Assembly: GCA_016794525.1 (NCBI GenBank)
Contig: JAEUJY010000141.1
Coordinates: 62,001 to 126,000 of the forward strand
From: Myxococcales bacterium
GTDB taxonomy: Bacteria > Myxococcota_A > Polyangia > Haliangiales > Haliangiaceae
Length of the DNA: 64,000 nt
Direction of reading: 5' to 3'
The notes under the pieces are model-generated. The model was not told the DNA's origin. It ran no database searches and saw only the letters and a program-made list of their open reading frames with translations. Both the position numbers and the translations under genes were made by a program. Within the stretch, counting starts at the first letter, position 1. Every line of letters begins with the position of its first letter. Of this stretch, positions 15,464-27,802 are shown piece after piece.

Positions 15464-19309
<3,846 letters not shown>

Positions 19310-19340: not shown

Positions 19341-21305
19341 CTAGCGGAAGACGATCGGCAGGATCGCGATCGCCTGGACGTGCTCGTCCTGGAACCGCGC
19401 CACCTGCGCCAGCGTCGACCGCACCACCGCCGCCACCTCGGGCGACAGCTGCGTCGCGACGTCGGCCAGCGCGGCGGAGGTCGCGGCGCCGCCGAGCGCG
19501 CCGATCGACACCTCGCCGATCCGCCCGACCAGATCGTGCAACGTCAGCTCCGGCGGGTAGACCTCGACCTCGGCGCCGGCGTCGACCTTGCCCAGCTCGC
19601 GCGCGGCGGCCAGCGCGGCCTCGAGGCCGCCCAGCTCGTCGACCAGCCCGAGCTGCTTGGCCTGGACGCCGGTCCACACCCGGCCCTGCGCGATCGGCTC
19701 GATCTCCGCCGGCGTCTTGCCGCGGCCGGCGGCGACGCGGCCGACGAACACCTGGTAGGTCGCCTGCATCATCGCCTGCACCGCGGCCTTCTCGTCGGCG
19801 CTCCACGGATCGAGGCTGGCGAACATCGTCGCGCGCTTGCCGCGGCCCATCGGGTAGGTGGTGACGCCGAGCTTGGCCAGCGCGGGGCCCAGCGCCAGCT
19901 TGCCGCCGACCACGCCGATCGAGCCGGTCAGCGTGTCGGGCTCGGCGTAGATCTTGGTCGCGCCGGCGGCGATGTAGTAGCCGCCCGACGCCGCGACGTC
20001 GCTCATCGACACGACGACCGGCTTCTTGGCCTTGACCGCGGCGACCGCGTGCCAGATCAGCTCGGAGGCCAGCGCGCTGCCGCCGCCGGAGTCGATGCGC
20101 AGCACGACCGCCTTGACGTGATCGTCGGCGGCCAGCACCCGCAGCGTCGGCACCAGCGTGCGCGACGCGATCTGCTGGCGCGCGCCCATGACGCCGTCGC
20201 CGCTGCCATCGACGACGTCGCCCAGCGCGTACACCAGCGCGACGTGATCGCCGGTCGGCCGGGTCGCCGGCACCGCGCCGAAGAACCGCGCCAGCTTCAT
20301 CATCGCGGCGCTGCCGTCGTCGGAGGGCGCGACGGCGACCTTCGTCCACGGCTGGCCCAGCTGATCGCGGAACGCCTCGAACGGCGCGACCTCGTCGACC
20401 AGGCCGGCGGCCAGCGCGCGCTCGGCGGGGAACAGCCCCTCGTCGATCCGCGCCTTGACGACGTCGGGGGTGAGCGCCGGCCGGCCCTCGCTGACCATCG
20501 CCACCATCGTCGCGTAGCGCTGGTCGAGGATCGCGCCCAGCACCTCCTCCATCTCCTTCGACGGACGATCGCGGGTCAGCGGCTCGGCCGCGCCCTTGTA
20601 CGCGCCGACGTGCAGGAAGTCGGCGGTGACGCCGAGGCGATCGAGCAGGCCCTTGAGGTGGACCGGCATCGCCGACGGCCCGGCCAGCATGACGTCGCCG
20701 GTCGGCGCCAGCCCGATGCGCTCGCACGCCGCCAGCAGCAGGTAGGTCGCGTTGGCCGCGCCCTCGGTGTGGCAGTACAGGTGCTTGCCCTTGGCGCGCC
20801 ACGCCGCGAGCGACGCGCGCAGCTCGGCGAGATCGGGCAGCGACGCGCCGACGCCGTCGACCCGGACCACCAGCCCGGTCAGGCTGGCGTCGGCGGCCAG
20901 CTCGTCGAGGCGCGCCGCGAACGCGCGCAGCGGCAGCGTGTCGTCGCCGCCGGTCCACGAGTACGCCTCGAGCTCGCCGAACGAGCCGGCCAGCGTCATC
21001 ACGCCGAGGTGCGGCTTGCCGGCGGCGTAGTCGGCGCTGGCGTCGGGCGCGTCGTAGGGGCCCGGCCGCTTGAGGTTCTCGACGACGTTCTTGACCAGCG
21101 TCATCGGGTCGCCGAGCCCGGGCAGCCCGGGGCTGCCGACGCTGCTGGGCGGCGCGGCGCCGGTCCCGCCGCCGGCCGGCGCGGCCCACGGATCGTCGGA
21201 CGGCGGCGGCGACTGCGACCAGCGGGGCGGGTCGTCGGACTTGCACGCCGCGGCCAGCGGCAGCAGCGCGGCGGCGAGGAGGAGCGAGCGGAGACGGATC
21301 GCCAT
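19341..21305 (-). CDS. sppA: Signal peptide peptidase SppA, 67K type, as a lipoprotein
   Basis: A 654-residue tandem-repeat S49 protease that degrades cleaved signal peptides. The dyad is conserved: Lys237 (VGAYKGAAEPLTR) in the first half and Ser440 (SDVAASGGYYIAAG) in the second, as in E. coli SppA, where the two halves supply Lys and Ser. The family motif TGSIGVVGGK is present. Unlike the E. coli protein, which has an N-terminal membrane anchor, this one has a short signal ending in a lipobox (LAAAC, Cys21) followed by a Ser/Pro/Gly linker, suggesting a lipid anchor. ATG 21305 has TACGCT nine bases upstream. Confidence 0.92.
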   Translation of the reverse strand: MAIRLRSLLLAAALLPLAAACKSDDPPRWSQSPPPSDDPWAAPAGGGTGAAPPSSVGSPGLPGLGDPMTLVKNVVENLKRPGPYDAPDASADYAAGKPHLGVMTLAGSFGELEAYSWTGGDDTLPLRAFAARLDELAADASLTGLVVRVDGVGASLPDLAELRASLAAWRAKGKHLYCHTEGAANATYLLLAACERIGLAPTGDVMLAGPSAMPVHLKGLLDRLGVTADFLHVGAYKGAAEPLTRDRPSKEMEEVLGAILDQRYATMVAMVSEGRPALTPDVVKARIDEGLFPAERALAAGLVDEVAPFEAFRDQLGQPWTKVAVAPSDDGSAAMMKLARFFGAVPATRPTGDHVALVYALGDVVDGSGDGVMGARQQIASRTLVPTLRVLAADDHVKAVVLRIDSGGGSALASELIWHAVAAVKAKKPVVVSMSDVAASGGYYIAAGATKIYAEPDTLTGSIGVVGGKLALGPALAKLGVTTYPMGRGKRATMFASLDPWSADEKAAVQAMMQATYQVFVGRVAAGRGKTPAEIEPIAQGRVWTGVQAKQLGLVDELGGLEAALAAARELGKVDAGAEVEVYPPELTLHDLVGRIGEVSIGALGGAATSAALADVATQLSPEVAAVVRSTLAQVARFQDEHVQAIAILPIVFR

Positions 21306-21349: not shown

Positions 21350-23830
21350 CTACGGCGAGGTCGGCGGCGTGTCGCTGCCGCCCGACGGCGGCGGATCGGC
21401 CGGCTTGTCGGGCGGCGGGCTGCTGCCGCTGCCGCTGCTGCCGGTGCCGCTGCCACCGCCGTTCTCGGGCGGCGTCGGGCCGGCGCCGCCGCCGGTCAGG
21501 CGATCGAGCTGGCGCTTGATGCGCTCGTCGTCGGGATAGACGTCGAGGTAGCGCTTGTACGCCTCGATCGCGAGGTCGGCGCGGCCCTGCTGCTGGTAGG
21601 CCTCGGCGACGCCGCGCAGCGCGTCCTTGTTGCGCGGCGACAGCGCGAGCGCGGTGCGGAACTTCGACTGCGCCGACGCGAACTGCTTGGCGTCGATGTG
21701 GCAGTAGCCCATGCCGATCAGCGCCTCGACGCCGGCCGGCCGCTCCTCGAGCGCCTTGCTGTAGTACGGCATCGCCTGGCCGCAGTCGACCTCGGCCAGC
21801 TTGTCGGCCTTGGCCACCAGCTTGTCGTACGGATCGCCGGAGCCGCTCGGCACGCTGACCGAGCCGGAGCCGCCGCTGCTGCCCGAGCCGCTGCCGCTGC
21901 CCGAGCCGCTGCCGCCGCCCACGCCCGCGTCGACCTCGGGCGGCATCGGATCGGTGCCGTCGACGCCGCTGACCTTGGCGAGCAGCGCCTTGGCGCCGGC
22001 GTGATCGGCGGCGATCGCCAGGATCGACTCGCACGCCGTGCGCGCGTCGTCGGGCTTGTTGGTGGCGGCGGCCAGCCGGGCCGCGAGCCAGCGCCCGCGC
22101 ACGTCGCCCGAGGTCTCGAGCGCGCCGACGCCGCTGTCGGCGGCGGCGACCAGCGTGGCCGCGCGGGCCAGATCCTTGTCGCGCAGCGCGACCTGCGCCT
22201 CGACCAGCGCCAGCTCGTGGGCGTCGTCGTCGCTGGGCTTGCCGGCGCGCGCCGCGTCGAGGTACCGCGTCAGATCGCGCAGCGCCTTGCCCTGCAGGCG
22301 CAGCACGTCGGCCATCGCGATGTTGCCGAGCACCGCCGCCGCCGCGTCGGCGCCGGCGCCCTTGATCGCGCGCTGGGCCAGGGCCAGCGCGGCGAGGGTC
22401 AGCCGCTTGCGATCCTCGCGCACCTTCTCGGCGGTCTTGGGGTCGGCCGCGGTCGCGGCCTCGTCCTCGAGCACCTGGGCCTGCGCCGTGATGAGCCGCG
22501 CGCGCATGCCGAGCGTCGCCGGCGTCTCGGCGGCCGCCGCCAGCGCCTTCTCCGCGGCGATCAGCCCGGGCGCGGCGTCGAGCCCGAGCTGGGTGCGGGC
22601 GTTGTCGAGCAGGTCGGCCGCCACCGCGGCGCCGCCGTCGGGGCTGGTGCCGCCGTCGAGCGCGACCACCGCGGCGCCGCCGTCGAGCGTCGCGGCCTCG
22701 CTGCCGGTGCCGCCGCCCGCCGCCGGCTTCTTCGGCGCGCGCAGGAACGCGACGTAGACGATCGCCGCGGCCGCGCCGATCACGACCAGCGAGCCGAGGG
22801 CGATCCACAGCCCGGCGCCGCTCTTGCGCGGCGGCGCGTCGCCGAACGGATCGAACGCGCCCTCGACGTCGGACACCATCGGCCGCCGGCCACCGGCGGC
22901 GAAGGCGACCTCGTCGGTCGGGACCGGGCCGACCTTGCCGCTGAAGCCGGGGCCGCCGGCGTTGGAGGCCGCGCGGACGCTGCCGCCCATCGGGCCCTGC
23001 TGGCCGGTGTCGTGCGACGCCAGCGGCGCGACGCCCTCGCTCGCCCACGCGCCGGTGGCGCGGTCCGACGGTGGCACGGGCGGCGGCAGCGGCGGCGCCT
23101 GGGGCGGCGCGCTCGGCGGCGGCGGCGGGATCGGCGGGCCCTGCACCACCGGCCCGGCGACCATCGTCGGCGCGGTGGCCACGGGCGCGGGCGCGCGCAG
23201 CGGCATCACCGGCGGTGGCGGCGGCGGGGTCGCCGGCGCTGGCGGGCGCGGCGGCGGGGCCGCGCGCAGCGGCTCGACGACGGTCTCGCGCTCGGGCGCC
23301 TTGACCGCGCCCATGCCGGCGACGGTCGGGCGCGGCTCGGCGACCGCCTGCCCGCGCGGCGGCGTGATCTGGCCGGAGTCGCTGCGCTGGACCCGGGCCT
23401 GCTCGGCCACGACGAAGAACGACGCCAGGTCGGGGATGTCGCCGAGGCGCTTCCAGGTCTTGCCGCTGCGCGAGATCATCGACTCGCGCGACACGCTGCC
23501 GGCGATGATCCACTGCTGCAGCGTCGCCAGCTCGCGGCAGGTCCGGGTCTCGCCGTTGTCGAGCCGGATGATCCACTGGCGCTCTTCACCGCCGGTGACC
23601 GGGCCCGACCCGGTCTGGGCGCGGGGCTCCGGCACCGCCTGGCGCGCCGTCGGCGGCGGCTGGCTCGGGCCGGGCGCGCGCGTGGTCGGGATCCCGCTCT
23701 GGGTCGCGGCCCGCTTGCGGATCTTGAACATGTGCCCGCACGTCGTGCACTTGACCGTGACGCCGCCCGGCTTCAGCCGCGCCTCGTCGAGCTCGTATTC
23801 GGTCTGGCACTTCTCGCAGCGAACGTCCAT
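21350..23830 (-). CDS. Zinc-ribbon / GYF / TPR single-pass membrane protein
   Basis: An 826-residue protein. Residues 1-37 form an MJ0042-type zinc ribbon (Cys5, Cys8, Cys28, Cys31). Residues about 84-141 form a GYF_2-like domain (LQQWIIAGSVSRESMISR). Pro-rich runs follow to about 330, then one membrane helix (about 342-364), an Ala-rich helical region with TPR-like repeats, a Gly/Ser linker and further TPRs (about 660-770). The order zinc ribbon, GYF, one membrane helix matches the cytoplasmic half of Myxococcus GltJ (AgmX), whose zinc ribbon and GYF bind gliding regulators, but the periplasmic part here is TPR, with no TonB-like end. A role in polarity, motility or envelope assembly is inference. 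It is divergent from the PilZ gene. Confidence 0.85.
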   Translation of the reverse strand: MDVRCEKCQTEYELDEARLKPGGVTVKCTTCGHMFKIRKRAATQSGIPTTRAPGPSQPPPTARQAVPEPRAQTGSGPVTGGEERQWIIRLDNGETRTCRELATLQQWIIAGSVSRESMISRSGKTWKRLGDIPDLASFFVVAEQARVQRSDSGQITPPRGQAVAEPRPTVAGMGAVKAPERETVVEPLRAAPPPRPPAPATPPPPPPVMPLRAPAPVATAPTMVAGPVVQGPPIPPPPPSAPPQAPPLPPPVPPSDRATGAWASEGVAPLASHDTGQQGPMGGSVRAASNAGGPGFSGKVGPVPTDEVAFAAGGRRPMVSDVEGAFDPFGDAPPRKSGAGLWIALGSLVVIGAAAAIVYVAFLRAPKKPAAGGGTGSEAATLDGGAAVVALDGGTSPDGGAAVAADLLDNARTQLGLDAAPGLIAAEKALAAAAETPATLGMRARLITAQAQVLEDEAATAADPKTAEKVREDRKRLTLAALALAQRAIKGAGADAAAAVLGNIAMADVLRLQGKALRDLTRYLDAARAGKPSDDDAHELALVEAQVALRDKDLARAATLVAAADSGVGALETSGDVRGRWLAARLAAATNKPDDARTACESILAIAADHAGAKALLAKVSGVDGTDPMPPEVDAGVGGGSGSGSGSGSGSSGGSGSVSVPSGSGDPYDKLVAKADKLAEVDCGQAMPYYSKALEERPAGVEALIGMGYCHIDAKQFASAQSKFRTALALSPRNKDALRGVAEAYQQQGRADLAIEAYKRYLDVYPDDERIKRQLDRLTGGGAGPTPPENGGGSGTGSSGSGSSPPPDKPADPPPSGGSDTPPTSP

Positions 23831-23939: not shown

Positions 23940-24305
23940 GTGACCGCGCCCTCCCACCGCGACGGCGAGCGCGTCGCGCTCGACGCCTTCGTCAAGGCCG
24001 CCGCCGGCGACACCGAGCTGGTGTTCCGGGTGCGCGATCTGTCGCGCTCGGGCCTGTTCCTCTACACCCGGGTGGCCCGCAGCTACCCGTTCCGCCCCGG
24101 CACGACGCTGGCGATCGAGCTGTTCGACTTCGACCAGACGCTCACGCTCAAGGTGGTCGTGGCCCGCGTCGTCGAGCCGGGCAGCCCCGAGGCCGACCAC
24201 TCGCCCACCGGCTTCGGCGTGCGCATCGTCGACGCCGACCCGGCGACCCGGGCCCGCCTCGAGGCGCTGATCGAGCGGGTCAAGGCCAGCGGCGCGAGCT
24301 ATTAA
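23940..24305 (+). CDS. PilZ domain protein (121 aa)
   Basis: A single-domain PilZ-like protein. The N-terminal RxxxR-type arginines are weak (HRDGERVALDAF), but the central motif DLSRSGLFLYT matches the (D/N)xSxxG signature, and the C-terminal GFGVRIVDAD strand is typical. PilZ proteins usually bind cyclic di-GMP and act by protein contact; in myxobacteria many stand-alone copies affect motility or polysaccharide. The weak arginine motif leaves c-di-GMP binding open. GTG 23940 is chosen because residues upstream do not look like protein and a TGCTACCCT box precedes it. A hairpin element follows the stop. Confidence 0.82.
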   Translation: MTAPSHRDGERVALDAFVKAAAGDTELVFRVRDLSRSGLFLYTRVARSYPFRPGTTLAIELFDFDQTLTLKVVVARVVEPGSPEADHSPTGFGVRIVDADPATRARLEALIERVKASGASY

Positions 24306-26371: not shown

Positions 26372-27802
26372 CTACACGTGGCCGAGCTTGATGCTGCTCG
26401 CGTGCGCGGTCGCCGCGGCGCTGCCGCGGGCGGCGGTGATCGCCGCGGCGATCATCGCGTCCTGCTCGGCCGGCACCTTCCACCGCGCCTGGATCTCGGG
26501 CGCCAGCGTGTCGATCGGATCGTAGTAGAGGAAGTACCCGGGCTTCACCGACGGCGCGGCGTAGACCGAGATGCCGGTGTCGCGATCGTAGTGCTCGAAG
26601 CTGTGCACGACGCGCTTGCCGCCGCCGCCCGGCGCGTCGCACACGAACGTCGGCGTGTGGAAGCCGGCGGTCGAGCCGCGCACGCACTTCTCGAGATCGA
26701 CCGCGGTCTGGACGGTCGTGCGCAGGTCCTCGACGCCCTTCACCAGGTCGTGGACGTAGACGTAGTACGGGTGCACGTTGCAGTAGCCCAGCCGCTTGAC
26801 CAGCGTCTGCATCGTCGCGACCGCGTCGTTGACCCCGCGCTGCAGCACCGCCTGGTTGCGCACGATCACGCCGCGCTCGAACAGCCGGTTGAGGCCGCGC
26901 CGGGTGATCGCGGTCAGCTCGCGCGGGTGGTTGAAGTGGGTGTGCAGCACCACCTCCTTGTGCAGCGTCCGGCCGCGCTCGACGATCGCGGTCAGCGCGT
27001 CGACCCACTCGTCGTCGGTGATCAGCTTCATCGGCATGACCGCCGGGCCCTTGGTGGCGAAGCGGATGCGCCGGACGTTGTCGCAGTCGAGCAGTGCGTT
27101 GCCGATCAGCGTGATCTGCCGCGCCTTGAGCTGGTAGCTGTCGCCGCCCGACACGACGATGTCCTCGAGCTCGGGCCGCGACCGGATGTACGTGAACGCG
27201 CGCTGCCAGCGCTCCTCGGTGGCCTTGAGCGAGACCTTCTCGACCTCGTCGGTGTCGACGCCCACCGCGTAGCTGCGGGTGCAGAACCGGCAGTAGACCG
27301 GGCAGGTGTCGAGCGCCAGGAACAGCGCCTTGTCGGGGTAGCGGTGGGTCAGGCCCGGCACCGGCGCGTCGGCCTGCTCGTGCAGCGAGTCGAGCGTCAG
27401 CTTGGGGTGGTCGGGCAGCAGCTTCGACGCCACCGGCACGAACTGCCGGCGCAGCGGATCGGCGTACGGGTCCTCCCACTCGATCAGCGACAGCAGGTAC
27501 GGCGACACCCGCAGCGACATCGGCGCGCGGCGGAAGCCCTCGGCGACGTCGTCGATGAAGCTCTGCGGGACCAGGTCCTGCACCGCCGCCAGCAGCTTGG
27601 CCGGGTTGGTGATGCTGTTCTTGGCCTGCCACTGGTGATCGAGGAACGTGGCCTCGTCGACGCCGCGGTAGGCGGGGATGCGCTGCCAGAACGGTCCGTC
27701 GAGCAGCTGCTTGTAGGCCAGCGTCGCGGGATCGACGGCGGGCTTCAGGTGAACGATGTCATCGGCGGGCTTGGCCTGGCCGATCGTGACGAGCGAGTCC
27801 AT
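26372..27802 (-). CDS. kamA: L-lysine 2,3-aminomutase
   Basis: A 476-residue radical SAM/PLP enzyme that converts L-lysine to L-beta-lysine. The [4Fe-4S] site CPVYCRFC (Cys167, Cys171, Cys174) has the CxxxCxxC spacing. The family motifs YPDKALFLALDTCPVYCRFC, VVSGGDSY and RGLNRLFERGV are present, and the length is normal. Products of this family feed lysine fermentation or, together with an acetyltransferase (AblB), the osmolyte N-acetyl-beta-lysine. No ablB-like gene is adjacent. The gene is flanked on both sides by members of the hairpin/CCCCC-box repeat family. No strong ribosome site was seen before ATG 27802. Confidence 0.93.
   Translation of the reverse strand: MDSLVTIGQAKPADDIVHLKPAVDPATLAYKQLLDGPFWQRIPAYRGVDEATFLDHQWQAKNSITNPAKLLAAVQDLVPQSFIDDVAEGFRRAPMSLRVSPYLLSLIEWEDPYADPLRRQFVPVASKLLPDHPKLTLDSLHEQADAPVPGLTHRYPDKALFLALDTCPVYCRFCTRSYAVGVDTDEVEKVSLKATEERWQRAFTYIRSRPELEDIVVSGGDSYQLKARQITLIGNALLDCDNVRRIRFATKGPAVMPMKLITDDEWVDALTAIVERGRTLHKEVVLHTHFNHPRELTAITRRGLNRLFERGVIVRNQAVLQRGVNDAVATMQTLVKRLGYCNVHPYYVYVHDLVKGVEDLRTTVQTAVDLEKCVRGSTAGFHTPTFVCDAPGGGGKRVVHSFEHYDRDTGISVYAAPSVKPGYFLYYDPIDTLAPEIQARWKVPAEQDAMIAAAITAARGSAAATAHASSIKLGHV

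Follow-up and report, generated by a model that had tools for sequence, protein, structure and literature searches.

A zinc-ribbon, GYF-fold and TPR membrane protein encoded beside an SppA-type protease gene in myxobacteria, and its possible role as a protease adaptor

The window, i.e. the whole stretch of 64,000 nucleotides that was analysed, has a GC content of 74% and carries on its minus strand an open reading frame for an 826-aa protein, the GC content of which at the three codon positions (0.75/0.60/0.98) follows a coding pattern; it is clearly a real gene. Its product had been described, by the sequence-only reading, as a zinc ribbon followed by a GYF-type domain, a Pro-rich linker, a single membrane helix and TPRs, and this order of domains was upheld. 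No RNA families or tRNAs were found in the 64-kb window. The features of the locus are the following:

21350..23830, minus strand: gene of the 826-aa bitopic protein with zinc ribbon, GYF-fold domain, Pro-rich linker, membrane helix and TPRs (ATG-start open reading frame)
23723..23830, minus strand: zinc ribbon, residues 1-36, with Cys5, Cys8, Cys28, Cys31 and Phe35 (PF13717 and invariant columns)
23408..23578, minus strand: diverged GYF-fold domain, residues 85-141 (weak PF14237 match and fold match)
22799..23407, minus strand: Pro-rich variable linker, residues 142-344 (alignment conservation)
22742..22798, minus strand: membrane helix, residues 345-363 (hydropathy in 15 aligned sequences)
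21968..22636, minus strand: first helical solenoid block, residues 399-621 (AlphaFold2 model), presumably periplasmic
21500..21832, minus strand: TPR block, residues 667-777, with Cys683 and Cys710 (profiles and AlphaFold2), presumably periplasmic
19341..21305, minus strand: gene of an SppA-type S49 peptidase of 654 aa, a putative lipoprotein, with Lys237 and Ser440 (Pfam and alignment)
23940..24305, plus strand: gene of a PilZ protein of 121 aa with the motifs RxxxR and DxSxxG (PF07238, E 1.8e-11)

A scan of genome contigs yielded 15 loci, every one of them from myxobacterial or 'Deltaproteobacteria' assemblies, and the 14 loci with a full N-terminal head (zinc ribbon and GYF-fold domain) were aligned with the window's protein, giving 15 rows. 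The nearest named relatives come from Kofleriaceae and Myxococcales assemblies, as expected from the myxobacterial origin that had been proposed. The head profile matches 25 of 28 genomes, the window's own included (E ≤ 1e-5), with no match in G057, G069 and G075, and it matches at least 64 of 143 genomes sampled throughout the phylum, again with the own genome included (E ≤ 1e-10), the latter count being a lower bound with up to 25 candidates scored per genome. Neighbourhoods were taken from 60 of 84 further genomes having head matches, and the clustering of neighbours omits nine loci where the head gene was not picked. Nine of the 23 out-of-class loci fetched gave no TPR match, so the weak head matches include other zinc-ribbon proteins.

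Residues 1-36 match the MJ0042-type zinc ribbon of Pfam (PF13717, E 1.1e-13), and the NCBI MJ0042 model matches as well. The sequence of the ribbon is related to that of GltJ (7zok, E 2.5e-5), and the best row obtained with Foldseek was the ribbon of ZitP (2nb9, E 2.5e-3; Z 4.5). Residue 35 is a phenylalanine, invariant in 15/15 heads of the family. The domain that follows is weak by sequence, since GYF_2 (PF14237) is matched with an E-value of 0.0039, under the model's own cut-off; at E ≤ 0.01 this match is found in nine of the 15 aligned sequences. The predicted structure is confident across about residues 86-140, and the best PDB rows for this region comprise many GYF domains, GltJ's own among them (7z3c; Z 5.6, rmsd 4.8, 71 residues, a modest score). 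In the same comparison, two TIC-complex chains of plant or algal origin score equal to the GYF rows, and no Foldseek match at E 0.001 or better was obtained for the predicted fold of the head. From the predicted model, residues 85-141 are best described as a diverged GYF fold, the scores being modest. The GP motif of GYF domains is absent from all 15 heads of the family.

Within the variable linker, short conserved motifs are seen in the 15 aligned sequences around residues 257-263, 279-283 and 293-301 and at Phe310. In the window, the segment 22901-23062 corresponds to linker residues 257-310, with R257-A263, GPxGG, EPAFAGRVR (consensus) and Phe310, which may be considered as candidate binding sites. 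The strongest hydrophobic segment of the protein spans residues 345-363, and one hydrophobic peak occurs at the matching place in 15/15 aligned sequences, the weakest being that of L015 (1.79); in L011 a second hydrophobic peak directly follows the common one.

C-terminal to the membrane helix, the model shows two helical blocks with a stretch of low confidence between them. The second of these has the fold of a standard TPR domain (6q3q; Z 17.6, rmsd 1.9, 116 residues), the TPR profile matches falling within residues 685-775. The zinc ribbon and the TPRs are both found in all 15 aligned sequences, so their combination is not due to chance. In 13/13 close sequences, the window's included, the TPR block holds exactly two cysteines, 27 residues apart. 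Besides this pair, the 13 share only the four cysteines of the ribbon and one of the GYF domain, with one further cysteine each in the window's protein and in L002; the pair is missing from L014 and L015, which are distant, S49-linked homologues. The pair Cys683-Cys710 would fit a disulfide bond outside the cytoplasm. Together with the one membrane helix placed after the ribbon head, this conserved pair suggests that the TPR block lies in the periplasm. As for the identity of the blocks, the TPR fold matches are generic and indicate no partner, and NlpI, LbcA and LapB are absent among the fold matches listed, a result compatible with a likeness to any of them. An LppC/LpoA identity of the first helical block was rejected, the match being weak (E 0.0028, under the cut-off) and confined to one of the 15 sequences.

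The gene of the S49 peptidase (S49, E 4.9e-63) is the next one downstream on the same strand, separated from the 826-aa gene by 44 bp, and the two genes are probably co-transcribed. An S49 gene follows in 14/14 named head-bearing loci as well as in the truncated locus L012. Among loci with sufficient room on the contig, it is the next gene in 8/8 of the same family (three of them being the same contigs as named loci), 1/2 of the same order and 13/20 genomes of the same class, and in 0/21 elsewhere in the phylum; four family, two order, one class and two phylum loci had no such room and were excluded. Fourteen of these 21 out-of-class genomes do have the TPR part. In a tree of 55 rows and 232 columns (33 with S49 and 22 without), the bootstrap of which is not fully settled, the linkage label changes five times compared with a shuffled mean of 17.5. 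The few label changes and the complete lack of the S49 neighbour in the 21 out-of-class genomes make the linkage look old within the class and unseen outside it. It is clear that the pairing of the SppA gene with the 826-aa gene is real and well conserved; the 826-aa type of protein can nevertheless exist without an adjacent S49 gene, as follows from the seven of 20 class, one of two order and 21 of 21 other-phylum cases that have no such neighbour.

The dyad of Lys237 and Ser440 is retained in 39/39 SppA rows (the window being counted twice, with three duplicate contigs), and both residues align with those of E. coli protease IV (3bez, E 5.5e-55) which we take to be catalytic. The alignment with E. 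coli SppA extends across most of both halves of the protein. The window's enzyme differs from it in being a putative lipoprotein, in its N-terminal low-complexity stretch and in missing the cut-off of NCBIfam SppA_67K (TIGR00705; 291.2 bits against 311.45); the cut-off of SppA_dom is passed (218.3 bits against 155.45). The putative lipoprotein anchor is deduced from a lipobox-like string near the N-terminus, found in 27 of 38 SppA loci and not found in the other 11; that of the window has alanine at position -3. The C-terminus of SppA is conserved across the loci, and it was considered as a ligand for the groove of the TPRs. This idea was rejected, because E. coli SppA has a similar C-terminal end and the tail is probably structural.

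The divergent PilZ gene already seen by the sequence-only reading was confirmed on the opposite strand, 109 bp away from the head gene, and it is found likewise in 12/12 same-family regions. It is adjacent and divergent in ten of the 13 named loci with room (three of the family loci being the same contigs as named ones), in one of four same-order loci, and in none of the 20 same-class and 22 other-phylum loci with room; in the same-order locus L059 a PilZ gene is placed two genes up. RxxxR and DxSxxG, presumably the consensus motifs of PilZ domains, are readable by eye in all 25 PilZ rows (including three duplicate contigs). The association with PilZ is narrower than that with S49. In seven loci (cluster 3; L081:6937-7488 and similar) the place of PilZ is taken by a divergent gene whose product starts with a lipoprotein-like stretch containing Cys, and the two members scanned gave no Pfam match.

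With regard to other neighbours, ten in the window were scanned by Pfam and no known motility gene was recognised among them; those with a match include a kinase, a VWA protein, an aminomutase-like protein and transporters. Since many neighbours are unannotated, the absence of motility genes applies to the neighbours examined. A link to motility had been suggested from the sequence alone, and the survey of other genomes did not bear it out, as it showed no recognised motility gene and an SppA-type protease as the conserved partner. The gene convergent with that of SppA (15464-19309) encodes a serine/threonine kinase that also has an AAA ATPase domain and extends into a long C-terminal part; the product of 26372-27802 resembles lysine 2,3-aminomutase, its only Pfam match being a short one to the C-terminal domain of this family.

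The resemblance to GltJ (AgmX) of Myxococcus xanthus, from which that suggestion had arisen, holds for the parts and, at the level of fold, for the ribbon and the GYF domain; neither membership of the family nor a link to motility was supported. Both proteins have an N-terminal MJ0042-type ribbon, a GYF fold, a Pro-rich linker and one membrane helix. Here, however, a TPR part replaces the AgmX/PglI-type tail, the SppA gene adjoins, the GP motif of the GYF domain is absent, and phenylalanine instead of isoleucine is found at position 35. Membership of the GltJ/AgmX family (NF033761) was rejected on a score of 23 bits against a cut-off of 450, from residues 3-65 only, and the AgmX/PglI C-terminal domain (NF033768) is not matched in the 826-aa protein at E ≤ 0.01. 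The window's own genome possesses three PF13717 genes, the two others being nearer to GltJ, yet also under 450 bits. One of them (L020:5164-7083, on contig C92 of G000) codes for a GltJ-like zinc-ribbon/GYF protein of 103.5 bits with an AgmX/PglI-type tail (NF033768, 34.6 bits, under the cut-off of 40), which passes the TonB C-terminal model TIGR01352 (29.8 against 27.1); the gene adjoining it resembles that of adenylosuccinate synthase. The other (L021:5913-6782, on contig C73) is a GltJ-like zinc-ribbon/GYF gene of 59.2 bits, truncated where the contig stops. In the heads of both GltJ-like proteins, the GYF domain retains GPL or GPF, and position 35 is isoleucine. In the accessible part of one report, position 35 is isoleucine in AgmX and, in ZitP, a tryptophan needed for PopZ binding (PMC5182065).

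GltJ is listed among the effectors of MglA in the available text of a review (PMC12288465). Canonical MglA (E < 1e-80) was searched with the sequence L036, which originated from a 57-genome phylum search and was confirmed against solved MglA. It was recovered in 23 of the genomes searched, a set of 28 that included the own one, and in 6/6 other genomes of the same genus. As regards the MglA-type GTPase expected for a polarity adaptor in the own genome, an MglA-like relative and a roadblock protein are present and canonical MglA was not found: in this genome (96.7% complete) the search returned only relatives with 40% and 32% identity, located at C158:31343 and C78:35743 of G000. The relative with 40% identity matches solved MglA (3t12, E 2.2e-40). 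A search of the genome with PF00025 was of no use for MglA, retrieving one protein only, which by eye is initiation factor 2, a translation factor. The missing canonical MglA may be due to loss or to an assembly gap, and the findings on MglA are ambiguous, neither refuting nor supporting a GltJ-like polarity role.

Computation established the domains and their conservation, the S49 linkage and the intact catalytic residues of SppA. It is the SppA gene, not gliding genes, that usually adjoins the 826-aa gene, and a protease adaptor is therefore more likely than a motility switch. The 826-aa protein may be considered as a bitopic adaptor, the periplasmic TPRs of which would bind and scaffold or regulate SppA under the control of the cytoplasmic head, a proposal that we see as evenly poised between right and wrong. 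Such an adaptor would be anchored in the inner membrane, with a cytoplasmic N-terminus and a periplasmic C-terminus. The zinc ribbon, the GYF-fold domain and the motif-bearing linker would bind cytoplasmic partners and set the place or timing of action, and the single helix would relay this input from the head to the periplasmic TPR solenoid. The solenoid, by a physical contact that we infer, would hold, position or feed the product of the next gene downstream, the SppA-type lipoprotein protease. The divergent PilZ of the Kofleriaceae-like lineage may add shared regulation or be itself the cytoplasmic partner. A more specific form of the proposal, doubtful at present, makes the protein a transmembrane adaptor dedicated to SppA, in which the head and the linker motifs would read a cytoplasmic cue, possibly a polar GTPase or, by way of PilZ, c-di-GMP, and act through the TPRs to switch or place SppA in the periplasm.

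Gene linkage to SppA can also reflect co-expression only. The protein might then be a general scaffold or assembly factor of the envelope, its operon-like arrangement with SppA providing shared regulation and no complex. This would agree with the lack of the S49 neighbour in 21/21 out-of-class genomes with room, 14 of them having the TPR part, and with the position of the gene, in some out-of-class loci, near gatA/gatB-type or mtnA-/rplU-like genes; the S49 linkage, however, persists in two deep clades of the class and has changed little there, and we consider such a general role rather unlikely. Least probable of all is a c-di-GMP-linked envelope regulator with the divergent PilZ as the partner of the head and SppA as a secondary component: the PilZ gene is divergent in the window, in all 12 same-family regions and in ten of the 13 named loci with room, and its two motifs occur in all 25 rows, but it is found in only 1/4 order, 0/20 class and 0/22 other-phylum loci, while the S49 linkage spans the class.

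A GltJ-like adaptor of polarity or trafficking was also weighed, the head of which would bind a GTPase of the MglA type, or partners of that GTPase, and bring in an envelope machine based on TPRs. The relatedness of the ribbon to that of GltJ (7zok, E 2.5e-5), the fold match of the GYF region (7z3c, Z 5.6), the MglA-like GTPase and roadblock protein of the genome, and the canonical MglA of 23/28 genomes searched all speak in its favour. Such a role is nevertheless improbable in view of the score with the GltJ model (23 bits against 450), the two proteins of the genome that resemble GltJ more closely, the GP motif present in both of those and in 0/15 heads, the Phe35 of 15/15 heads as opposed to isoleucine in AgmX and in both GltJ-like proteins, the lack of a recognised motility gene among the neighbours examined beside the 826-aa gene, and the negative search for canonical MglA in the own genome. 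On this evidence, the analogy with GltJ fits the parts and not the job.

Returning to the protease adaptor, several known systems share some of its features. ZitP of Caulobacter is likewise bitopic, with the same ribbon fold (2nb9) and an aromatic residue at position 35; this is Trp35 in ZitP and phenylalanine here, and the GYF-fold and TPR parts are present here in addition. LapB/YciM, the adaptor of FtsH, has a similar list of parts, i.e. a membrane helix, TPRs and a zinc ribbon, the TPRs and the ribbon being cytoplasmic and the protease FtsH. TPR adaptors are represented by NlpI and LbcA. In the accessible parts of the respective reports, NlpI-Prc and LbcA-CtpA are described as lipoproteins partnering periplasmic proteases (PMC5686067, PMC8764530), and this type of scaffold protein working with a periplasmic protease would be the closest working analogue of the proposed adaptor. 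In contrast to those lipoprotein adaptors of C-terminal or tail-specific processing proteases, the protein studied here would span the inner membrane once, carry a cytoplasmic head and act on an S49 protease. An account of zinc ribbons and GYF domains in bacterial conflict systems, SppA and MglA being unmentioned in the available portion of its main text (PMC7159879), was set aside as having no bearing on the SppA pair. A literature search found no published description of a TPR-adaptor/SppA pairing. We know of no dedicated SppA partner with cytoplasmic input elsewhere. Should the two proteins form a physical pair, the SppA of these bacteria would possess such a partner, and the zinc-ribbon/GYF head would be a module that can be reused to exert control across the inner membrane, employed in gliding by GltJ and in envelope proteolysis here. 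This would also call for caution against assigning the motility role of GltJ to every related head.

The surroundings of the homologues offered some further observations. In five loci (cluster 6, including L015:4460-10849) the S49 gene is followed by genes of large proteins of 870 to 2130 aa, some of them cut by the end of the fetched stretch; that of L015, the only member scanned, gave a sub-cut-off TPR match only. In out-of-class loci (L067-L070, L072, L096 and L101) the TPR version is located by GatA/GatB-type genes, that of GatA type encoding an amidase, or by mtnA-/rplU-like genes, and a helicase-like gene with a second small TPR gene is found upstream in several out-of-class loci; the mtnA, rplU, gatC and helicase neighbours are presumed to be such from their sequences. 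Five out-of-class loci (cluster 7) have a small TPR gene just upstream, with a start that by eye is ribbon-like.
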